Shown one piece after another: positions 5,511 through 15,067 of a DNA stretch of 20,770 bases. Each line of letters begins with the position of its first letter. Position 1 is the stretch's first letter. The notes below the pieces were generated by a model. The model did not search any database and was not told the origin of the DNA. It saw nothing but the letters and a program-made list of their open reading frames with translations. The position numbers and the translations under genes were made by a program. This DNA comes from a virus: positions 1 through 20,770 of IMG/VR virus record IMGVR_UViG_3300032241_000523; one strand, written 5' to 3'.

Positions 5511-6647
5511 ATGCGATTACTGAATAAATCAACTGGTCGTTTTATTAATGTACCATCCGCTAGATTAGCGGTAGCCCTGATTCGTTCTGACGAATATATG
5601 TTCATCAACGATGACTTTAAAGAGTCAGAGCATCCAAGGGATGAGGATGGCAAGTTTACATCTTCAGGTGGATCAAGTGGACATCATGATATTGAGCCTT
5701 ATGGAAAAAATACGGCTAAAGAAGAAACAGTAACAATTACCAAACCTAATGGAAAAGAAATTGTACAAACTAGAGCATCTGTAATAAATTCATTAAAGCC
5801 ATCAAAACAATTAAAAAATGGTGGTTATATTGACCATAATGGATTTGAACATTCACCTAATTTAAATGAATCACAAAGAGCCGTAGAGAATGGATTTTAT
5901 ACGGAGATCCTAAAAAATACTCCAAAGCTAATCGCTGACTACAAAGCTAAATTTAAAAACAAAATTGATCCAGATGATGTCAAGCGACTAGATCCAAACT
6001 TTGATAAAGATTCTTCGTTGGCTGCTGCGGTTCATGAGCCAAGCTCTTACTTATCCAAAGTAATTTGGAATCAAGCACTCAAAGAGAAAAAAGAAAGAGG
6101 TGATACTTCTCCAGTTCTCTTTACTGCTGGTGGATCTGGCTCTGGTAAATCTGAAGCTGGTGAGTTGGCTAAAGCAATCATTGGTGCTGAAGAAGATCCT
6201 TTAACTTTTGATTCTGTTCTGGGCAACTTTGATAAATCAACAAAAAAGATTGATGAAGCTCTACAAGCTCAAGACGGAAAGATTGATATTGTTTATACCA
6301 ATGCTCCATTAGAGTTAGCAGTATTACTCAATATGAAGCGTAGCCGAACTGTTAAGCTAGATACCCAGATTGAGGCGCACTTCGCTGCATCTGAAAATAT
6401 TCGCAAGTTGGCAGAGCATTACAAGAATAATGATCGTGTCAAAATTACTGTTGTCAACAATACAGGAGATCCACCCGATTTAGCAGAAGGATCTCTAGCT
6501 GATGTTCCAACCTACAGCGACAGAGAAAGCATTCGTAAAAGGTTAGTTGCCCATGCTGAACATTTAGTTAAGAATAACTTAATCAAAGACAAAGAGGGCA
6601 ACCTGATTCCAGACCCAGAGAAGCGACTCAAACTTCTTCTGGGCTAG
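5511..6647 (+). CDS. Zeta-toxin-like P-loop kinase in the portal operon
   Basis: A 378-aa protein. Residues 1-40 are unknown; residues 38-50 carry SEHPRDEDGKF, a short motif frequent in phage head-associated and polyvalent proteins. From about residue 200 there is a P-loop kinase: VLFTAGGSGSGKSEAG with Walker A GGSGSGKS at 207-214, followed by LTFDSVLGNFDKSTKKIDEAL and IVYTNAPLELAVLL as in Zeta/UNAG-type kinases. Zeta toxins phosphorylate UDP-N-acetylglucosamine, but many phage members have unknown substrates. No Epsilon-like antitoxin is adjacent. It lies 2 nt after the portal, and its stop TAG interlocks with that of the convergent gene in one CTAG. Fold is well supported; function is inferred. 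Confidence 0.72.
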   Translation: MRLLNKSTGRFINVPSARLAVALIRSDEYMFINDDFKESEHPRDEDGKFTSSGGSSGHHDIEPYGKNTAKEETVTITKPNGKEIVQTRASVINSLKPSKQLKNGGYIDHNGFEHSPNLNESQRAVENGFYTEILKNTPKLIADYKAKFKNKIDPDDVKRLDPNFDKDSSLAAAVHEPSSYLSKVIWNQALKEKKERGDTSPVLFTAGGSGSGKSEAGELAKAIIGAEEDPLTFDSVLGNFDKSTKKIDEALQAQDGKIDIVYTNAPLELAVLLNMKRSRTVKLDTQIEAHFAASENIRKLAEHYKNNDRVKITVVNNTGDPPDLAEGSLADVPTYSDRESIRKRLVAHAEHLVKNNLIKDKEGNLIPDPEKRLKLLLG

Positions 6648-6835
6648 TACCGATTACGCAACAACCGCTTTGCTGCTGACAACCGCAACTCATCCTCTGG
6701 AGTATTTAGCATCGGAAGGATTGACAAGGCTTTGACCATCATCTTTAAAGCAAACTTGTCAGAGTTGCCAGCAATGCATAAATCAGCATACTTCTTTGGA
6801 TTATTTTTTTTCAAATCCTGATAATAAGTTCCCAT
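6644..6835 (-). CDS. Small basic hypothetical protein (63 aa)
   Basis: The second of two adjacent ATGs (6835) is chosen because the motif ACGAAAGGA (6842-6850, - strand) then stands exactly 6 nt upstream, as before the + strand genes of this region. The product (MGTYYQDLKKNNPKKYADL...) is Lys/Arg-rich and helical, with KMMVKALSILPML in the middle. It is the last gene of a three-gene - strand operon and its stop shares CTAG with the Zeta-like gene. No family recognised; a role as partner of the kinase is possible but has no support beyond position. Confidence 0.6.
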   Translation of the reverse strand: MGTYYQDLKKNNPKKYADLCIAGNSDKFALKMMVKALSILPMLNTPEDELRLSAAKRLLRNRY

Positions 6836-6849
6836 CATAGTTCCTTTCG

Positions 6850-7092
6850 TTATCTCGCTACATTACCAACTAAATTACCATCCATAATTTCAAACAAAAC
6901 GGCTTTGGCTCTGTTTAGCGTTTGTCTAGCTCTTTCATTCGCACCCACAGCCAGTTCTTCTTGAGCATCACTCATCAAACCAGCAACAACCATATTTGCA
7001 CCAGAAAGCTGATAGCTAATATTTTGTTGGATCTGAGCAATGAACTCTTGAATGTCACAGCCATAACATTGCTGATCGAATTCTGAAATCAT
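6850..7092 (-). CDS. Hypothetical helical protein (80 aa)
   Basis: ATG 7092 overlaps the stop of the upstream gene (ATGA), with GGGGG nearby as ribosome binding site. The protein starts MISEFDQQCYGCDIQEF, with Cys9 and Cys12 (CYGC), and continues as a long Ala/Glu/Arg-rich helix (GANERARQTLNRAKAVLFEIM). Small phage proteins of this look are common in accessory regions; I cannot assign a function. Its stop lies inside the leader motif of the next gene. Confidence 0.6.
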   Translation of the reverse strand: MISEFDQQCYGCDIQEFIAQIQQNISYQLSGANMVVAGLMSDAQEELAVGANERARQTLNRAKAVLFEIMDGNLVGNVAR

Positions 7093-7247
7093 GCTGCACC
7101 CCCAATCAAGACACCATAGTTACGATCAAGACCTGCCATGATTCTTTCTGCACGAACCGCCCCGAACACACGCTGCAAAAATGGGAATGGTTCGCATGGG
7201 ATCTGCACTCTGTTTCCGAACCCACGAACTACCAAAACTGCTTCCAT
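7089..7247 (-). CDS. Small hypothetical protein (52 aa), first gene of the - strand operon
   Basis: AAAGGAG stands 6 nt before ATG 7247 on the - strand, and 52 codons lead to TGA overlapping the next ATG. The protein starts MEAVLVVRGFGNRVQIP and ends GVLIGGAA. It is a short, mixed sequence with Arg-rich middle (RVFGAVRAERIM) and no recognised family. The excellent ribosome binding site and the coupled downstream gene make it a likely real gene. Confidence 0.6.
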   Translation of the reverse strand: MEAVLVVRGFGNRVQIPCEPFPFLQRVFGAVRAERIMAGLDRNYGVLIGGAA

Positions 7248-7290
7248 GATTAACTCCTTTATTGATGATTAACACTACATTTATATGTTA

Positions 7291-7309
7291 ATGCTTATTA
7301 GGTATAGAT
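7291..7309 (+). repeat. Promoter-motif copy A (no gene at the usual distance)
   Basis: ATGCTTATTAGGTATAGAT matches the core of three promoter copies further on (ATGCTAWATAGGTATA). It lacks a TTGACA box and a start codon about 40 nt downstream, so it may be an operator copy or a degenerate promoter in the divergent region between the - strand operon and the + strand island. Confidence 0.4.
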
Positions 7310-7329
7310 GCAAATATATTTGATGGGTT

Positions 7330-7353
7330 TGTTGTTTGTGTGCAAAAACAACA
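7330..7353. repeat. Inverted repeat in the divergent control region
   Basis: TGTTGTTT (7330-7337) and AAACAACA (7346-7353) form a perfect 8-bp dyad around an 8-nt centre, 16 nt before the -35 box of the island promoter. It could bind a regulator such as the small HTH protein at 9569, or form a weak hairpin. It has no T-tract suited to a terminator. The 186-nt gap (7248-7433) otherwise holds only promoter elements. Confidence 0.4.
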
Positions 7354-7369
7354 CTTTAAGTAAATAGAT

Positions 7370-7398
7370 TTGACACTTATGCTATATAGGTATAATAT
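7370..7398 (+). promoter_or_regulatory. Island promoter, copy B
   Basis: A full TTGACA at 7370-7375 is followed by ATGCTATATAGGTATAATAT; the -10 is TATAAT 7391-7396 (15-nt gap) or TAATAT 7393-7398 (17-nt gap). GGTATA ends 40 nt before ATG 7434. Two more copies of the same promoter stand at 7962-7990 and 8669-8696. Confidence 0.7.
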
Positions 7399-7433
7399 TA
7401 AATTGTTCATTAACTCTCACGAAAGGATAAAAA

Positions 7434-7634
7434 ATGAACCTATTGATCGCTGAAAAAGTTGGCGGTTCTTTCCAAAAAATCGGTGTCATGAATGGCGATG
7501 AGTTGCTTACAGATTGTTTGCTTGCTGTCGGTCTTGCCTACAATGCCAAAAGGTTTTTTGAAGGTGATTCGGCAGCAGTTTCTCTCGACTACCAGTTAGA
7601 GGGCATTGAATACAGAGTTTCTAAGTTTTTTTAG
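7434..7634 (+). CDS. Island protein 1 (66 aa, hypothetical)
   Basis: Preceded by promoter copy B and by ACGAAAGGA exactly 6 nt before ATG 7434. The product (MNLLIAEKVGGSFQKIGVM...) ends YQLEGIEYRVSKFF, has alternating hydrophobic strands and two Cys-free halves, and looks like a compact beta/alpha fold. No family recognised. The position first in the island, behind the strongest promoter copy, suggests early expression. Confidence 0.65.
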   Translation: MNLLIAEKVGGSFQKIGVMNGDELLTDCLLAVGLAYNAKRFFEGDSAAVSLDYQLEGIEYRVSKFF

Positions 7635-7659
7635 TAGTTCAACCACGAAAGGAGTTGTT

Positions 7660-7911
7660 ATGAATGATGTAAAAACTGGCGGTGAAACTGGTTTTGGTAT
7701 CGTCAATGGAAAATGGTTTGGCGATAGTCGGATTTGTTTATCAGTTTTATATTTTGATAATCCTGATGATGCTGATGCTGTAGCTCTCAAAGTCAAAGAA
7801 CAGGGTAGATCCTACAATGGTGGATGGTTTGATGGAATGCCTTGTGGCAGAGAGCCAGCCAGAGATTACAAGGATAGTCAGGGCATTCAATGGTATGCGG
7901 TAAGTTGTTAA
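7660..7911 (+). CDS. Island protein 2 (83 aa, hypothetical)
   Basis: The frame is open from 7606, but ATG 7660 (MNDVKTGGETGFG) is chosen because ACGAAAGGA is exactly 6 nt upstream. The protein contains SVLYFDNPDDADAVALKVKEQG, like a strand followed by a helix, then Gly/Trp-rich YNGGWFDGMPCGRE and ends YAVSC. Function unknown. It is cotranscribed with the gene before it and followed directly by a terminator, so genes 7434 and 7660 form one short transcript. Confidence 0.65.
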   Translation: MNDVKTGGETGFGIVNGKWFGDSRICLSVLYFDNPDDADAVALKVKEQGRSYNGGWFDGMPCGREPARDYKDSQGIQWYAVSC

Positions 7912-7913
7912 AC

Positions 7914-7940
7914 AAGCCCCTTCGGGGGCTTTGCGTTTTT
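7914..7940 (+). terminator. Rho-independent terminator after island protein 2
   Basis: AAGCCCC, loop TTCG, GGGGCTT form a 7-bp stem right after the stop codon, followed by TGCG and five T. The UUCG-type tetraloop and GC-rich stem are typical; the T-tract is slightly displaced. Confidence 0.8.
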
Positions 7941-7961
7941 ACAACACTTTATAAAATAAAT

Positions 7962-7990
7962 CTGTACTGTATGCTAAATTGGTATATACT
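7962..7990 (+). promoter_or_regulatory. Island promoter, copy C
   Basis: ATGCTAAATTGGTATATACT (7971-7990) repeats the copy B core. The -35 is weaker (CTGTAC, 7962-7967) and TATACT 7985-7990 follows after 17 nt. GGTATA ends 40 nt before ATG 8026. It stands directly behind the terminator, so it restarts transcription for the next genes. Confidence 0.65.
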
Positions 7991-8025
7991 GAAAGTGTAA
8001 TAAATAACTCTCGAAAGGAAACAAA

Positions 8026-8112
8026 ATGATCTTCGCACTAATCGCCCTCGCTGTCTTGGTCTTGGTTGTTTATCCAATGTATATGGAATCAATCGAAGGT
8101 TTGGTAATCTAA
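8026..8112 (+). CDS. Single-pass membrane peptide (28 aa)
   Basis: TCGAAAGGA is 6 nt before ATG 8026; 28 codons end at TAA 8110-8112. The first 17 residues (MIFALIALAVLVLVVYP) form an uninterrupted hydrophobic helix, followed by the short acidic tail MYMESIEGLVI. It must sit in or at the membrane. Peptides like this in phages act as small membrane effectors or accessory factors, but no specific role can be read. Promoter copy C and the fixed leader support real expression. Confidence 0.65.
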   Translation: MIFALIALAVLVLVVYPMYMESIEGLVI

Positions 8113-8130
8113 TCCACGAAAGGAAAAATC

Positions 8131-8463
8131 ATGAAAGAAGTCGAAGTTTGGGGTGGCAAAAAAGTAATGGCATTTCAGGATGCTGACTTGTTTGACAAAG
8201 CTCCGATCCTAGCTGCTGCCGAGCAAATCTGGTATCAGGAATGGATCAAGTCTGGTGTTGGTGATGTCGGTACTTGCTGTGGTGGTAAAGGCATTCAGGT
8301 TTATTACATTGGCAAGGGTAAAAGAAATTACAGCCAGAAACTTGTAGTGCCTTGCAGTTTTGTACAGGGTAATGTGGCTGCTGCGGTATCAGTCAAACCA
8401 GTACTAGAGTTTTTAGCTAGAAATGGCATCGAAGGTTCGTATTACGATGGTTGGATGGATTGA
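8131..8463 (+). CDS. Island protein 3 (110 aa, hypothetical)
   Basis: ACGAAAGGA stands 6 nt before ATG 8131. The protein starts MKEVEVWGGKKVMAFQD, has a predicted helix (PILAAAEQIWYQEWIKSG), a TCCGGKGIQVYYIGKGKR segment with paired Cys, and ends EGSYYDGWMD. The basic patch GKGKRNYSQK after a strand could contact nucleic acid, but this is a guess. No family recognised. It follows the membrane peptide by 18 nt in the same transcript. Confidence 0.65.
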   Translation: MKEVEVWGGKKVMAFQDADLFDKAPILAAAEQIWYQEWIKSGVGDVGTCCGGKGIQVYYIGKGKRNYSQKLVVPCSFVQGNVAAAVSVKPVLEFLARNGIEGSYYDGWMD

Positions 8464-8465
8464 TT

Positions 8466-8672
8466 ATGGAATATCCAATTGGTACAAAATACAAAACTAG
8501 GGGCAAAGCCCCTAGGCTTTGTGAAGTTGTAGATATTTTAAAAACCTACAACTCCAAGGGCGAACTGGTGAAAACTCGATATGTTGCAACTCACAGTTTT
8601 ATGGGTCAAACAGTTACGGATTACGATGTTGTAAAAACAACAATAGCAATGGGAATAGAAATAAATAGTTGA
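8466..8672 (+). CDS. Small basic hypothetical protein (68 aa)
   Basis: ATG 8466 (MEYPIGTKYKTRGKAPRL) is preferred over an in-frame TTG at 8451 that lies inside the previous gene. This is the one island gene without the ACGAAAGGA leader; it begins 2 nt after the previous stop and is probably coupled. The sequence reads like a small beta barrel (GTKYKTRGKAPRLCEVVDIL, then VKTRYVATHSFMGQTVTDYDV), reminiscent of KOW or SH3-like folds in phage proteins, without a firm match. A strong hairpin lies within its codons 11-17. Confidence 0.55.
   Translation: MEYPIGTKYKTRGKAPRLCEVVDILKTYNSKGELVKTRYVATHSFMGQTVTDYDVVKTTIAMGIEINS
8497..8515. repeat. Perfect hairpin inside the start of the 8466 gene
   Basis: CTAGGGGC and GCCCCTAG form an 8-bp perfect stem around AAA. 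It lies about 30 nt after the start codon and has no T-tract behind it. Such a stable hairpin could slow ribosomes, mark an RNase processing site or protect the mRNA end. Confidence 0.55.
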
Positions 8673-8696
8673 CATTATTCTAAATAGGTATATTAT
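8669..8696 (+). promoter_or_regulatory. Island promoter, copy D
   Basis: TTGACA 8669-8674 and the core ATTCTAAATAGGTATATTAT (8677-8696) repeat copy B; TATTAT 8691-8696 is the -10 with a 16-nt gap. GGTATA ends 42 nt before ATG 8734. The -35 box overlaps the stop codon of the previous gene. Confidence 0.7.
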
Positions 8697-8733
8697 TAAG
8701 TTGTAGTCTTAATCAATCACGAAAGGATTAAAG

Positions 8734-9222
8734 ATGGAAAAGCAAATTAGTCGTCATGCTGGTGCTGCCAAAATGATTCGTCAGTTTATGAAGTCAAAAG
8801 GCATCGCTGGTAGTGTGCGTAGCAAAAGCTACAGTATGGGCAGTAGCATTAATGTTGATGTGATGGATCTGCCACCAGCGCAGTATGCTGAGTTGGTTGC
8901 GTATGTTGCTCAGTTTGAGTATGGTCATTTTGATGGAATGATTGACTATTACGAAATGGACAATGTTCGGGATGACATTCCACAAGTCAAGTATGCCTTT
9001 GTTAATAACAAAATGAGTGATGAGTTGGGCGAGAAGATTTACCAGTTCATCAAAGGTTATTACGCTGGCATGGAAGGTTCGCCAGATAGCTTTAAAGAAG
9101 CTCACAGCTTTTATAACCAGAATTTTAATGGTTATGCTAGTCATCTGGTTTACCAGTTGTTTGCTGGTGGTTATATGAGAAACCAGTACTATGATTTTGT
9201 AGCAGAACAAAAAGCAGCTTAA
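8734..9222 (+). CDS. LPD29-like domain protein (polyvalent-protein-associated)
   Basis: A 162-aa protein with ACGAAAGGA 6 nt upstream. Residues 8-75 (AAKMIRQFMKSKGIAG, then SVRSKSYSMGSSINVDVMD, then FDGMIDYY) match what I know of LPD29, a small domain found in polyvalent proteins of phages and conjugative elements, often next to ArdC-type antirestriction domains. The second half (FIKGYYAGMEGSPDSF, YNQNFNGYASHLVYQLF) is helical and aromatic. A role in counteracting host defence is possible by association only. It has its own promoter (copy D) and is the largest gene of the island. Confidence 0.6.
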   Translation: MEKQISRHAGAAKMIRQFMKSKGIAGSVRSKSYSMGSSINVDVMDLPPAQYAELVAYVAQFEYGHFDGMIDYYEMDNVRDDIPQVKYAFVNNKMSDELGEKIYQFIKGYYAGMEGSPDSFKEAHSFYNQNFNGYASHLVYQLFAGGYMRNQYYDFVAEQKAA

Positions 9223-9240
9223 TCCACGAAAGGAAAAAAA

Positions 9241-9465
9241 ATGCAGATCGAAAACTTAAAATGTGTAATAGAAGGTTACGAATGTGAATTAGATTTTTCT
9301 GAAGAATGGTCTGATTGCATTGTTGTAAAAGGTGACTATAGTGGTAGTTTGCAATTCTTAGAATCTTATGGATATTTAGAGAATTACAAAAATGAAATGC
9401 AAATTAAAGTACCAGAAAGAGTCATTAATAAGATTGAAAGTTGGGCTTTAGCTAACGGATATTAA
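9241..9465 (+). CDS. Island protein 4 (74 aa, hypothetical, acidic)
   Basis: ACGAAAGGA is 6 nt before ATG 9241. The protein begins MQIENLKCVIEGYECELDF, is acidic in the first half (SEEWSDCIVVKGDYSG), and ends with a helix (ERVINKIESWALANGY). The pattern of strands followed by a helix suggests a small alpha/beta fold; no family recognised. It is cotranscribed with the LPD29-like gene 18 nt upstream. Confidence 0.65.
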   Translation: MQIENLKCVIEGYECELDFSEEWSDCIVVKGDYSGSLQFLESYGYLENYKNEMQIKVPERVINKIESWALANGY

Positions 9466-9472
9466 TTAACAT

Positions 9473-9559
9473 ACGAAAGGAATTAAATCTTCTGATATTT
9501 ACTTAAAGGAACTAGAGGATAGTTCTGGTGGTGATCCCTCTAACAAGGACAGAAAATGA
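9473..9559 (+). pseudogene. Leader motif with a start-less reading frame
   Basis: A seventh ACGAAAGGA (9473-9481) has no ATG, GTG or TTG at the 6-nt spacing; the triplet there (9488) is TCT. Yet the frame from 9488 is open for 23 codons (SSDIYLKELEDSSGGDPSNK...) to TGA 9557-9559, which overlaps an ATG. This looks like an island gene that lost its start or most of its body by deletion. A non-canonical start (ATT 9482 or ATC 9487 in another frame) seems unlikely. Confidence 0.4.
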
Positions 9560-9568
9560 AATATTAAT

Positions 9569-9790
9569 ATGAGTATTACTAAGAAACGCAATAGGGGCAG
9601 CCTTGGGGTTGTCCCTTTACCTACCGAAATTATTGGTGCAAGGGGTGAATTATCACAATCTAAAGCTGCTAGTTTGATTTATACTACTCAAGCAAGATGG
9701 AGTAATTACGAAACTGGCAAGAGCAGAATGCATCCTTGTGCATGGGAATTATTCTTAATTAAAAGGAGTAATTATGGCAACATCATTTGA
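9569..9790 (+). CDS. Small XRE/HTH-type DNA-binding protein
   Basis: A 73-aa protein with a helix-turn-helix: LSQSKAASLIYTTQARWSNYETGKSRMHP, followed by AWELFLIK. This is the HTH_3/XRE pattern of a short phage and MqsA-like group in which the last helix reads MHP-x-AWELF. It probably binds operator DNA as a dimer; the repeated promoters of the island are natural candidates (inference). ATG 9569 has no near ribosome binding site; AAGGA at 9545-9549 instead serves a three-codon frame (ATG 9556, stop 9565-9567) that ends 1 nt before it. Its end overlaps the next gene by 17 nt. Confidence 0.65.
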   Translation: MSITKKRNRGSLGVVPLPTEIIGARGELSQSKAASLIYTTQARWSNYETGKSRMHPCAWELFLIKRSNYGNII

Positions 9791-9944
9791 AGAAGCAAAA
9801 AAGAAATGGCTTGAGAAAGTTGGTGACAAGTCATGGGATGAGCTTTACAACGAAGAAGAAGCCCGAAAAGATGCGAAGGTGAGAGAGCTTATGACACCTG
9901 AATACATTGACAATTGGGGCAAATTGCCTGAAGGCGATGAATGA
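9774..9944 (+). CDS. Small charged hypothetical protein (56 aa)
   Basis: AAAAGGAG lies 4-5 nt before ATG 9774, and 56 codons end at TGA 9942-9944 overlapping the MuF start (ATGA). The protein (MATSFEEAKKKWLEKVGDK...) is Lys/Glu-rich and helical with two Trp (KSWDELY, YIDNWGKLPEGDE). No family recognised. The overlap with both neighbours ties the HTH gene, this gene and MuF into one transcript. Confidence 0.65.
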   Translation: MATSFEEAKKKWLEKVGDKSWDELYNEEEARKDAKVRELMTPEYIDNWGKLPEGDE

Positions 9945-10749: not shown

Positions 10750-13374
10750 ATGCCATTTCAATCTGAGCAACAAAGAAAAGCGATGTATGCTGCTGCTTCA
10801 GGCAAGAGCAATATCGGAATACCTCAGGAAGTGGCTAAAAAATTCATTAAGCATTCAGAAGATAGCGAAGAAGAATCAGCCGAACAATGGCTTGAAAGAA
10901 TATTACTCGCTGAAATGCTAAAGCAAGACAACTCTGGCGATTTCCCAGAAGAACCAACTTTACTGTCAACCCCAGAATTCAAGAAAGATAGCGAAGTTAC
11001 TGTTCGCAATGGTAGAGAGCAACTTAAACCTATTCAAAATGAAATAGCGCAAATTGCTCAACTTATTACCGAATACAAAAAAGACCAAAATATGGCAGTA
11101 CCTCGCTTTGGTGAAGATTCCGAAGCATGGGAAACCAAAGAAGGCAAAAACAAAAATGGTGGCTTAAATGAAAAAGGTCGTGAGTCATACAATAAAGAGC
11201 ATGGTGCACACTTAAAAGCACCACAGCCAGAGGGCGGTTCAAGAAAAGCATCTTTCTGCGCCAGAATGAAGGGCATGAAGGAAAAACTGACTTCTAGCAA
11301 AACAGCCCATGATCCAGATTCTAGAATCAATAAATCATTGAGAAAATGGAAATGCGATGATGATGTTGATACTTTGAAAGAAGGATTAATCAAAGTAATA
11401 GATGAATTAGAAAAATATGTTGATGCCGATCCTTGTTGGGAAGGCTATACCCAATATGGTATGAAAGAAAAAAATGGCAAGCAAGTGCCAAATTGCGTAC
11501 CAGATGCTAAAGATGATGCAGCGGATTTAGTGGCTAGTGAGCCTTTAGTCAAAATGCCAGTATCAAATAATGGTGGCGCAAAAGGTCGTGCGGCAGGAAT
11601 TATGTTTGTTACTGCTGAAGGCGAAACCCTATTAATTCGCAGAGGCAATGGCGGTGACTTCCCCGGTACTTGGTGTGTCCCCGGTGGTCATCAAAATGAA
11701 AAAGACAGTAGTTTAGAAGAAGCAGCTCGTAGAGAATGTTTTGAAGAAACAGGTCTTAAATACGATGGCAAGCTAGAAGTATTATATGACGATGGTCAGT
11801 TTTGCACCTATATCGCTAGAAATGTCAAAAAAGAAGCTGTTACTCTAAATTACGAGTCTACTGGCTATGATTGGTGTAACTTAGAATGCCCACCACTACC
11901 ACTTCACCCCGGTCTGGACATTGCTTGCCGAATTGCAAGTGCAAAAACAGAAACCGATGTAGCAAAATTGATGATGGAAGGCTTGATTCCAAGTCCTCAG
12001 ATGTATGCCAACATTATGTTATTGGCAATCCGTATTACTGGTACAGGTCTGGCTTACCGAGGTTCGATTGGTGAAAATGTTTGGAGAGATCCATCACTTT
12101 ATTTAAATCAACAATTTTTGGAAAGATGTAATGGCTTGATGGTCATTATGGATCACCCAGATACGCAAGTATTGACATCAAAAGAATTTAAAGATCGTGC
12201 AGTTGGAAGTATTATGCTGCCATATATCAAAGGCGATGAGGTCTGGGGCATCGCAAAAATATACGATCAAGATGCAGTAAACGAGATTTGTGAGGGCGAA
12301 ATAAGCACCTCACCTTCCGTAGTATTTGACAATACTGCGGGAAACACTACACTTACAACTGAGAATGGAGATCCACTCTTGATTGAAGGTGTGCCATTCC
12401 TTTTAGATCATATAGCTATCGTAACGAAAGCTAGAGGTTCTAAAGGGGTATGGGACAAGGGCGGAGATCCCGCTGGAGTATTACTAACTAACCCTGAGGT
12501 GTCTGATATGACTGAGAAAATGATTGAGCCAAAGGCAGATGCCCAAGGCGAAAAACTTGATGCAATTCTGGCTGCTCTTGGCAACTTGGCTGCTCGTGTT
12601 GATAGCATGGAAAAAGATTTACCTGCTGCTCCACTAGTAACCGCTGCTGACAAGAAAAAAGCTCGTAAAGATGATGATAAGATGGCTAAACATCGTAAAG
12701 ATGACGATGAAGAAGCTATGTGCGATGATGAAGAAGAAGAAGAAGCTAAGATGGATGATGAGTCTGAAGCTAAAGCTAAAAAATTCATGATGCGTAAAGC
12801 TAAAAAAGATGCTGAAGGATCTGATCCTGTTGAGCATGGTAAAGCTGGCGAAATTAAGCCAGATAACGAAGGCGAAGTTGAAATGCCTGCTGGCGAAATG
12901 AACTTCAAGAAAGATGATGACGAAGAAGCCATGTGTGACGATGAAGAAGAAGCTGCTAAAAAAGATGAAGAAGAAGCTAAATATGCTGATGCACAAGCTA
13001 AAGCTGATTCTGTCTATGCTGCTTTCGGTAAATCTGCTTCTCGCCCATTAGCTGGTGAAAGCCTCTTGTCATACCGCAAGCGTATGGCTCGTGGTTTACA
13101 AGCATATAGCGATGCTTATAAAGATGTTAGTTTGGCTTCTATCAAAGATGCTAAATTGTTGGCTATTGCTGAAAAACAGATTTATGCTGATGCTTTGATG
13201 GCTGCTAAGTCACCAACAATGTACGCTGCTGACCAATTGATTGAGATTCATGAGAAAGATCGTGCTGGTCGTACTATCACTAAGTTCAAAGGCTCTATGG
13301 AAGCATGGTTAGGTGACTTTAAAGTTCCTTCCCTTCGTGCCAAGTCTTTTAACCTTAACAACAATCAAAGATAA
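10750..13374 (+). CDS. Multi-domain fusion: DUF6321-like, Nudix hydrolase, DUF2213 prohead protease, acidic scaffold
   Basis: 874 aa in visible blocks. (1) 1-35: PFQSEQQRKAMYAAASG, a motif seen in phage head proteins. (2) About 120-202: DUF6321-like, with GGLNEKGRESYN, GGSRKASFCARMKGM and LRKWKC. (3) 227-251: PCWEGYTQYGMKEKNGKQ, another phage-head linker. (4) About 279-400: Nudix hydrolase; the box starts at GG 312-313 and ends RECFEETGL at 328-336. The catalytic EE pair is kept, but the loop has one extra residue and the first Glu of the box is Ser. (5) 418-567: DUF2213 protease region (GLMVIMDHPD, STSPSVVF). (6) 587-874: acidic scaffold with two copies of KDDDEEAMCDDEEE (near 652 and 721). 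Protease plus scaffold is a normal head-assembly pair; Nudix fused in front is unusual. Protease processing would separate the parts (inference). Confidence 0.78.
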   Translation: MPFQSEQQRKAMYAAASGKSNIGIPQEVAKKFIKHSEDSEEESAEQWLERILLAEMLKQDNSGDFPEEPTLLSTPEFKKDSEVTVRNGREQLKPIQNEIAQIAQLITEYKKDQNMAVPRFGEDSEAWETKEGKNKNGGLNEKGRESYNKEHGAHLKAPQPEGGSRKASFCARMKGMKEKLTSSKTAHDPDSRINKSLRKWKCDDDVDTLKEGLIKVIDELEKYVDADPCWEGYTQYGMKEKNGKQVPNCVPDAKDDAADLVASEPLVKMPVSNNGGAKGRAAGIMFVTAEGETLLIRRGNGGDFPGTWCVPGGHQNEKDSSLEEAARRECFEETGLKYDGKLEVLYDDGQFCTYIARNVKKEAVTLNYESTGYDWCNLECPPLPLHPGLDIACRIASAKTETDVAKLMMEGLIPSPQMYANIMLLAIRITGTGLAYRGSIGENVWRDPSLYLNQQFLERCNGLMVIMDHPDTQVLTSKEFKDRAVGSIMLPYIKGDEVWGIAKIYDQDAVNEICEGEISTSPSVVFDNTAGNTTLTTENGDPLLIEGVPFLLDHIAIVTKARGSKGVWDKGGDPAGVLLTNPEVSDMTEKMIEPKADAQGEKLDAILAALGNLAARVDSMEKDLPAAPLVTAADKKKARKDDDKMAKHRKDDDEEAMCDDEEEEEAKMDDESEAKAKKFMMRKAKKDAEGSDPVEHGKAGEIKPDNEGEVEMPAGEMNFKKDDDEEAMCDDEEEAAKKDEEEAKYADAQAKADSVYAAFGKSASRPLAGESLLSYRKRMARGLQAYSDAYKDVSLASIKDAKLLAIAEKQIYADALMAAKSPTMYAADQLIEIHEKDRAGRTITKFKGSMEAWLGDFKVPSLRAKSFNLNNNQR
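12496..13374 (+). CDS. Nested in-frame scaffold start inside the fusion gene (288 aa product)
   Basis: GAGGTG at 12496-12501, a 6-nt match to the anti-Shine-Dalgarno, stands 6 nt before ATG 12508 (residue 587), exactly at the border between the DUF2213 region and the scaffold part. The resulting 288-aa protein begins MTEKMIEPKADAQGEKLDAI, then a coiled-coil-like LDAILAALGNLAARVDSMEK, then the acidic repeats and a C-terminal helical part that would bind capsid protein. This repeats the lambda C/Nu3 and similar plan, where a protease gene contains an in-frame start for the scaffold. Coding starts at 12508. The site is seen; its use is inferred. Confidence 0.6.
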   Translation, partial: EVSDMTEKMIEPKADAQGEKLDAILAALGNLAARVDSMEKDLPAAPLVTAADKKKARKDDDKMAKHRKDDDEEAMCDDEEEEEAKMDDESEAKAKKFMMRKAKKDAEGSDPVEHGKAGEIKPDNEGEVEMPAGEMNFKKDDDEEAMCDDEEEAAKKDEEEAKYADAQAKADSVYAAFGKSASRPLAGESLLSYRKRMARGLQAYSDAYKDVSLASIKDAKLLAIAEKQIYADALMAAKSPTMYAADQLIEIHEKDRAGRTITKFKGSMEAWLGDFKVPSLRAKSFNLNNNQR

Positions 13375-13384
13375 GGAATAAATT

Positions 13385-14026
13385 ATGTCAGCACAAATTT
13401 CTATTCAACCAATGGTAACAACCAATGCGAGTGGTTTGTTTAACACAAACTCCGCTGGTTTTACCCAAGGCGATGCATTAGATGATCCAGCAGTTAAGTT
13501 CTACTTGGCAGGTGGTGTATTATCAACCGCTGCTTCTACCCCAATCTGGGGTGGTTTGCCAATCCAAGAATTTTCAACAACTGGTCAATCAGGTGTATTT
13601 TCTGGAAATGTTCAACCCGGTACTAATACACTAGGTTCAACAATCCTTTTGGCAACTGCTTCAGCAGTTCCAACAGGTATTTCTGTATTTAACCAAGCAT
13701 ATGCAGGTATCACTACTCCACAGAGTACTGCTCCTTTGTATAGCCCCGGTATGTCTGTAAACTTCTATCGTTTCGGTAGCGGTGCAAGAATCCCTCTCGT
13801 TCTTGATCCATCTTCATTGTCAATCAATGGCGAGTTGATTAGCACTACTGTTTATTTTGACTACACCAACAACTGGGTCACAGTAAACAACCCCGGCACT
13901 CAAGCAGCTTTCCCTGTGAAAGTATTGCAAGTAAGCACCAGCGGTAATAAGACAGTTTCGTACAATAGCGGAACTGGCAATGCCAACTGGATTTATAACC
14001 AAAATGTGGCTCTTTGCCTAATTTAA
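13385..14026 (+). CDS. Putative capsid accessory (decoration or fibre) protein
   Basis: 213 aa between scaffold and major capsid genes, with AAGGAATAAATT before ATG 13385. It is rich in Ser/Thr/Gly/Asn and low in charge, with many short strands (STPIWGGLPIQEFSTTGQSG, ALDDPAVKFYLAGGVLS, GMSVNFYRFGSGARIPL). This fits a surface beta-protein such as a head decoration or cement protein made in large amounts. No family signature recognised, so the role comes from position and composition. Confidence 0.6.
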   Translation: MSAQISIQPMVTTNASGLFNTNSAGFTQGDALDDPAVKFYLAGGVLSTAASTPIWGGLPIQEFSTTGQSGVFSGNVQPGTNTLGSTILLATASAVPTGISVFNQAYAGITTPQSTAPLYSPGMSVNFYRFGSGARIPLVLDPSSLSINGELISTTVYFDYTNNWVTVNNPGTQAAFPVKVLQVSTSGNKTVSYNSGTGNANWIYNQNVALCLI

Positions 14027-14041
14027 TAAAGGAATATTACT

Positions 14042-15067
14042 ATGTCAGGCTTTGCACCCTCATTTGTAACAGTAAATCCGCATTACATGATGCCTGAACT
14101 GATTATGCAGTACAGTTTGGCTTCTGGTGCTTTCACAACCCTCGCAACTGAAAATCCAATGCCTCGCCTTGGAGAAGCAGATTTGTATGTATACGCTAAG
14201 AAAGTTCAGTTGACAACGCAAGTTGCAGCTAACCAATCTCAGCAAAACCAATTGCCAAGCGCATCTGTTATCCCTTCGATGATTAGCACCGCTACTTATC
14301 GCTTACAGACTCGTGCCCAGTATGACAACTTCGATGAAGCTGCTACTGGCGCATGGGGCTACGCATTGCCACAAGCTATGCGTTTAGCAGCTCGTCAAGG
14401 TATTGCACAGCAATTGCGTAACGCACTTCTCTATGGCTACAATCCAGCTAATGGCGAAGGCTTGCTCAATACTTCTGGTGCTACTACTCAATCTTTAGGT
14501 TCTGATACCAATGGCAATACTGGTTACAGCACTTGGGATAGTGGTCAATTAGCTCAGTATTTGTTGAACATGATTGGCGCATTGAAGGTTCGTACACTTC
14601 AAATCGGTCAACCATTACGCTTAGTTTTCCTTGCTCCACAACGCTTCATTAGCCAAATCTCTTACTCTGGTGTAGTGTCATTGACACAATTCCAACGTAT
14701 CGGTGCAGGTGTTGAAACCGCTGCTGGCTTGGTAGAAACTGTTGCTCAATGGGCGGGTGGCGATGATGTTTCATTCGCTGCTGATGACACTTTGATTGGT
14801 CAAGGTGCTGGTGGTACTGATGCGATCATCTTGATTGCTCCAGAACTCAAGATTCCTAAGGCTAACTCACAAATCAATACCAACATTTTTGCATCTTTGA
14901 CACCAAATCAAACTGCAACTTCATTGATGTTGACTGATGTGTCTGCTCCTACAGAGATTCCTACTCCTATCGCTGATGGTGGTATTACTACCCTCTACAC
15001 GATGCGTAGCACCTCTGGTTGGGGTATTCGCCCAGAAGCATTGACAATTCTGTCCGCTGCTTACTAA
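14042..15067 (+). CDS. Major capsid protein (DUF2184-like, HK97 fold)
   Basis: 341 aa after the protease/scaffold genes, ribosome binding site AAGGAATATT before ATG 14042. The sequence fits the DUF2184 capsid family: VNPHYMMPELIMQYSLASGAF at the front, LYGYNPANGEGLLN near 136-149, RLVFLAPQRFISQIS, then a C-terminal APELKIPKANSQIN and the ending WGIRPEALTILSAAY. It forms the icosahedral shell. Without the N-terminal delta domain seen in HK97, it depends on the separate scaffold. A strong terminator follows, as often after the most abundant product. Confidence 0.8.
   Translation: MSGFAPSFVTVNPHYMMPELIMQYSLASGAFTTLATENPMPRLGEADLYVYAKKVQLTTQVAANQSQQNQLPSASVIPSMISTATYRLQTRAQYDNFDEAATGAWGYALPQAMRLAARQGIAQQLRNALLYGYNPANGEGLLNTSGATTQSLGSDTNGNTGYSTWDSGQLAQYLLNMIGALKVRTLQIGQPLRLVFLAPQRFISQISYSGVVSLTQFQRIGAGVETAAGLVETVAQWAGGDDVSFAADDTLIGQGAGGTDAIILIAPELKIPKANSQINTNIFASLTPNQTATSLMLTDVSAPTEIPTPIADGGITTLYTMRSTSGWGIRPEALTILSAAY

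Follow-up and report, generated by a model that had tools for sequence, protein, structure and literature searches.

Nested arrangements of protease and scaffold genes are known from lambda, Mu and the herpesviruses. In lambda C/Nu3, the protease carries a scaffold tail, and the scaffold is additionally made by itself from an in-frame start within the gene; C is an S49/SppA-like protease. Nu3 is described as the scaffold and C as the protease (PMC3224144). The scaffold is likewise nested in the protease gene in Mu I/Z and in gene 27 of the Mu-like Pseudomonas aeruginosa phage PaMx73; in both, as at the locus described here, it occupies the C-terminal part of the protease gene in the same frame and has a Shine-Dalgarno sequence and start of its own inside that gene, and, unlike here, no split clade is described in the accessible part of the source (PMC4378225). 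Herpesvirus UL26/UL26.5 resembles our locus in combining an assemblin-fold protease and a C-terminal scaffold with a nested in-frame scaffold gene that shares the 3' end (PMC4498786). It differs in that UL26.5 has its own transcript instead of a Shine-Dalgarno sequence, belongs to a eukaryotic virus and comes without a Nudix domain. Fusions of Nudix domains to MuF, portal or a capsid-processing serine peptidase have been published as well, for which packaging and injection were proposed; that source does not name DUF2213, and its accessible part mentions no internal scaffold start (PMC9503650).

The locus described here lies in a viral stretch of 20,770 nucleotides (the window; positions 1 to 20,770 of IMG/VR record IMGVR_UViG_3300032241_000523). 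The gene order is portal, MuF-like gene, Nudix-protease-scaffold gene and capsid protein, as in Pantoea phage PdC23. The nested scaffold gene is located shortly 5' of the major capsid gene with a phrog_6268 gene between the two, an order which is alike in PdC23. The features are listed in Table 1.

Table 1. Features of the Nudix-protease-scaffold locus (positions in the window).
Feature	Position	Strand	Basis
Whole ORF, Nudix - DUF2213 protease - scaffold fusion (long product, 874 aa)	10750..13374	+	ORF list; PHROG phrog_6216 over residues 281-868, E 1e-147
DUF6321 domain, optional module, residues 132-200	11143..11349	+	Pfam E 1e-20
Nudix domain, residues 279-379	11584..11886	+	Pfam E 1.7e-14
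DUF2213 region, predicted gp21/assemblin-like maturation protease, residues 401-586	11950..12507	+	AlphaFold, T4 gp21 match, invariant columns
Internal Shine-Dalgarno GAGGTG	12496..12501	+	Sequence
Internal start codon ATG (Met587)	12508..12510	+	Kept in fused relatives; scaffold ORF start in split contigs
Nested scaffold gene, putative short product, 288 aa	12508..13374	+	Separate ORF in split relatives
Tentative hairpin, 5' arm GGTGTCTG, pairs Shine-Dalgarno	12498..12505	+	Pairing tests for, one recoding test against
Tentative hairpin, 3' arm CAGATGCC, codons 596-598	12536..12543	+	Pairing tests for, one recoding test against
phrog_6268 protein, between scaffold and major capsid protein	13385..14026	+	PHROG E 9e-55
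Major capsid protein, presumed partner of the scaffold	14042..15067	+	phrog_264 major head protein E 2e-8; phrog_6671 E 1e-138

The preliminary description of this locus had presented the two domains in front of the protease as an unusual feature. Both are present, and the Nudix match (PF00293) scores 54.4 bits against a curated cut-off of 21.1, with the Nudix-box residues R328, E329, E332 and E333 nearly invariant in the alignment of relatives. Among 53 scanned relatives, 48 carry the Nudix domain and 19 DUF6321. The combination is less unusual than implied, since Nudix-serine peptidase fusions are on record (PMC9503650). The first approximately 45 residues of the ORF (MPFQSEQQRKAMYAAASGKSNIGIPQEVAKKFI; window 10750-10880) correspond to phrog_16759 and recur N-terminally in relatives with and without DUF6321 (L034, L026, L132); this stretch is a small tag-like module.

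For the DUF2213 region, whose Pfam match covers residues 443-563 of the 874-aa ORF, an AlphaFold model was built from 43 sequences (pLDDT 88.6). Compared with known structures it matched the T4 prohead protease gp21 over 131 residues (Z 10.5, 2.7 A), above the next rows, and the herpesvirus proteases with Z 5-7, a distant resemblance. Foldseek, weak by itself (best E 0.005), ranked the same families first, and a sequence search of the protease alignment against solved structures gave no match. His469, Ser519, Ser521 and His554 are invariant in the alignment of relatives and are putatively catalytic. We predict that DUF2213 has the fold of a gp21/assemblin-like maturation protease, and it would act as a protease. 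Because of this predicted likeness to T4 gp21 and assemblin, the layout appears to match the nested genes lambda C/Nu3, Mu I/Z and herpesvirus UL26/UL26.5. Lambda C, which is S49/SppA-like, differs from the predicted gp21/assemblin-like DUF2213, and lambda C/Nu3 is without a Nudix domain. We know of no Nudix or DUF6321 domain ahead of the protease in Mu I/Z, whose protease presumably belongs to another sequence family than DUF2213.

The internal start signal was found exactly as first noted: GAGGTG is followed by TCTGAT and then by the in-frame ATG, which comes 586 codons after 10750, so the sizes of 874 and 288 residues hold. The site also lies at the domain border, 23 residues past the end of the DUF2213 match, where the acidic K/D/E-rich part begins. 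For the duplex of the site with the 16S 3' end an energy of -9.5 kcal/mol was calculated, rank 1 among the 98 ATGs of the gene and within the top 3 of the 545 plus-strand ATGs of the window, whereas the gene's own start at 10750 reaches -4.6 by the same calculation. Across 44 representatives less than 90% identical to each other, the junction site has a median of -7.2 compared with a mean of -2.3 at 793 other in-frame ATGs (Mann-Whitney p ~1e-24, kinship uncorrected). At the codon level, all 56 freshwater representatives encode Glu583 by GAG. Of 225 conserved degenerate columns this is the only one without codon variation, and GAA is favoured in most of the remaining conserved Glu columns of this set. 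The lowest synonymous diversity among 256 four-codon blocks belongs to 581-585, the Shine-Dalgarno sequence itself (30 representatives, <85% identity). The Shine-Dalgarno sequence is conserved beyond what the protein sequence requires. A short +1-frame ORF from GATGCC just past the internal start (32 codons in the window, hydrophobic) was considered and rejected as not conserved: among freshwater relatives retaining the motif its length ranges from 6 to 67 codons.

All 32 viral contigs of the close relatives have the Met with GAGGTG or GAGGTA 6-7 bases upstream. The alignment was also inspected for relatives without both the Met and the upstream GAGG, and it did not refute the proposed internal start. 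Of the 132 fused loci in the alignment, 131 retain Met587; these loci represent 49 distinct junction sequences, include contigs that were fetched twice and count the window itself as one locus. Nearly all have a Shine-Dalgarno sequence at workable spacing. The distant relatives were fetched via alignment searches, and the peptide patterns for fetching lacked the Met. Fused relatives span many viral contigs and bacterial genomes and include annotated phages, namely Pantoea PdC23, Shewanella QDWS, Yersinia and Klebsiella phages, Actinobacillus pPE4 and E. coli Rac-SA53. Across distant phages the Shine-Dalgarno sequence is coded as GAG GTG, GAG GTA, GAG GCT, A GGT GA, CAG GAG or GAG GAG. It is weak at the Met in a few fused relatives, with approximately -4 in L125, L127 and L128 and -2.7 in L034, where a GGAG precedes another Met three residues earlier. 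The sole Met exception, L132 from an alphaproteobacterial metagenome-assembled genome, has an inserted domain with GAGG-ATG ahead of the insert. This domain (KYGDVKFADPANDKYPIDTDEHIRAAWDYI..., L132 2200-4030) directly follows the internal start and separates the protease from the scaffold.

A split form, in which protease and scaffold are encoded by two overlapping genes, was found in 40 distinct contigs (44 loci, four of them repeat fetches; the set was extended by a search with the split scaffold), and five of the 32 close-relative contigs carry the two parts as separate ORFs. The scaffold ORF starts at the same ATG with the same site upstream. In GAGGTGTCTGAAAATGACTGA the upstream ORF stops at TGA and the scaffold begins at ATG with an overlap of 8 bases; the overlap is 11 bases in another split contig (L180). 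The split sequence equals the fused one plus one base at the junction, GAAAATG as opposed to GAAATG in fused relatives such as L101, and the scaffold frame is +1 relative to the protease frame. Inspection of the split members by eye revealed no canonical -1 frameshift heptamer. Since its frame is closed just upstream, the Met must be the start codon in the 40 split contigs. In one metagenome-assembled genome (L129) the genes are fully separate, with GGAG ahead of the scaffold ATG. Two further candidates for the split form were rejected and excluded from the count, as L131 and L135 are prophage copies, one rearranged and one frame-disrupted.

In a quick tree of 75 representatives (protease plus scaffold, calculated without bootstrap), two changes between the fused and split states were counted, compared with three in a protease-only and two in a scaffold-only tree. 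The main split clade comprises 17 representatives (SH-aLRT 100). It lies nested among fused forms, and the outgroups, too, have the fused state, so that the tree is most simply read as fission of a fused ancestor. One locus, L032, may represent a second fission or a recombinant. From the existence of the split clade it seems that the protease can do without its scaffold tail in some lineages. The clade represents a natural experiment on the need for this tail, without which approximately 40 contigs apparently manage.

The conservation of the Met, a Shine-Dalgarno sequence kept beyond protein constraint and the separate scaffold ORF in split relatives support the nested scaffold start proposed in the preliminary description. 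Very probably one gene gives rise to a long Nudix-protease-scaffold protein and, from the internal start, to the scaffold alone, and hence is a nested protease/scaffold gene. Initiation at Met587 would presumably take place in vivo. Ribosomes starting at 10750 would produce the 874-aa protein with Nudix domain, protease and scaffold tail, and those starting from GAGGTG-ATG at 12508 the 288-aa scaffold alone. The short form would probably be in excess, because the internal start signal is much stronger. The scaffold would then co-assemble with the major capsid protein, while the tail of the long form would bring a minority of protease, along with the Nudix enzyme, inside the prohead, and the scaffold would be cut there by the DUF2213 protease.

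Other readings of the site were weighed against this one. The internal start could be a relic of joined genes, so that only the long protein is made and proteolysis at the junction frees the scaffold. Herpesvirus assemblin-type proteases do self-cleave from their scaffold near the junction (PMC4498786). A scaffold freed by cleavage would need no start of its own; a relic, however, would decay, yet nowhere in the gene are synonymous positions more conserved than in the GAG codon and the Shine-Dalgarno sequence. Moreover, the tree, on its simplest reading, has the fused form as ancestral and fission as the later event, and autocleavage can coexist with an internal start; we regard the relic as very unlikely. 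Alternatively, Met and GAG GTG could be conserved because the protein needs them in a linker or at a cleavage site, or because they form a DNA or RNA element, and the resemblance to a ribosome-binding site would be incidental. Met587 at the domain border is plausible for a processing site, and its neighbours E583, V584 and S585 are conserved as residues inside the freshwater clade, too. Against this, the residues before the Met change completely among distant relatives while the Shine-Dalgarno sequence persists, Glu583 is never GAA in the freshwater set, and the Met necessarily serves as start codon in the 40 split contigs, which leaves an incidental resemblance extremely improbable.

The internal start could also be used for a 288-aa product which is no scaffold, e.g., a protease regulator or a minor internal head protein. 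This part is without structural match to known scaffolds: a sequence search of its alignment against solved structures gave no match, and a fold search with the low-confidence model returned nothing meaningful and no known scaffold. In the model itself, a helix at the N-terminus is followed by a disordered acidic middle and by a C-terminal part that is helical and confidently modelled, and a protein of this charged, coiled and disordered kind with a folded C-terminus is typical of a scaffold. A place between protease and major capsid gene and nesting in a maturation-protease gene are furthermore the usual scaffold arrangement, and a non-exhaustive look at the head-gene region identified no other scaffold candidate. 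We consider a different function unlikely and infer that the 288-aa part acts as scaffold.

The Shine-Dalgarno sequence may furthermore be part of an RNA hairpin, as GGTGTCTG can pair with CAGATGCC, approximately 28-36 bases past the first base of the ATG. RNAalifold chooses this helix on 32 sequences. The hairpin cells pair in 92.7% compared with 27-50% with the arms slid, the covariation score lies above all but 4 of 500 shuffles, and the full 8-bp helix occurs in 58% of haplotypes compared with 4-10% in codon draws at each gene's own usage. When blocks are ranked by low synonymous diversity, the first separate one to follow the Shine-Dalgarno sequence is 595-598, the other arm of the hairpin. 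These tests are inflated by inherited codons. A U-A pair is replaced by A-U in L093, L106 and L119; the same hairpin is retained in split relatives, and it is broken in L026, L098, L057, L114 and L185. An ensemble test of Shine-Dalgarno base-pairing in 42 sequences against synonymous recodings showed no excess (Fisher p 0.17), and because of this negative result the hairpin stays tentative. It is conceivable, if rather doubtful, that the internal start of the freshwater clade is embedded in a conserved RNA hairpin. In that case initiation of the scaffold would depend on a ribosome already engaged in translation of the protease part upstream (translational coupling), which would fix the ratio of scaffold to protease. 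In a Rahnella prophage (L141, 2310-2389) a different strong hairpin pairs the Shine-Dalgarno sequence, with an unpaired probability of 0.00, below 98.5% of synonymous recodings. This hairpin is perhaps an independent version of the same control.

In the full-text literature searched, which covers few subscription journals, no description of an internal start in the DUF2213 protease/scaffold family was found. New here are the deep conservation of the site, the natural fission clade and the tentative hairpin between the Shine-Dalgarno sequence and codons 596-598, and of these the fission clade is the most useful new fact. The nested protease/scaffold design of lambda, Mu and the herpesviruses would thereby be extended to the DUF2213 family, for which a gp21/assemblin fold is predicted and which here is preceded by a Nudix domain, and the system offers a testable case for the balancing of scaffold and protease amounts. 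The examined annotated records of the family would accordingly overlook an entire gene. Public records (L033, L035-L038) label the gene as glycosyl transferase, TolA protein, NUDIX hydrolase or hypothetical protein, and the nested scaffold is annotated in none of these.

Two further observations concern the head-gene region upstream. Between the portal and the MuF-like gene a Zeta-toxin-like kinase ORF is encoded (window 5511-6647; Pfam Zeta_toxin E 3e-7), which carries a EHPRDEDGKFTS motif close to its N-terminus and is possibly a head-packaged effector. From this ORF to the MuF-like gene, approximately 3.3 kb (window 6650-9940) hold small ORFs only, those on the plus strand encoding 101-162 aa, and such a gap is unusual for a head-gene cluster.
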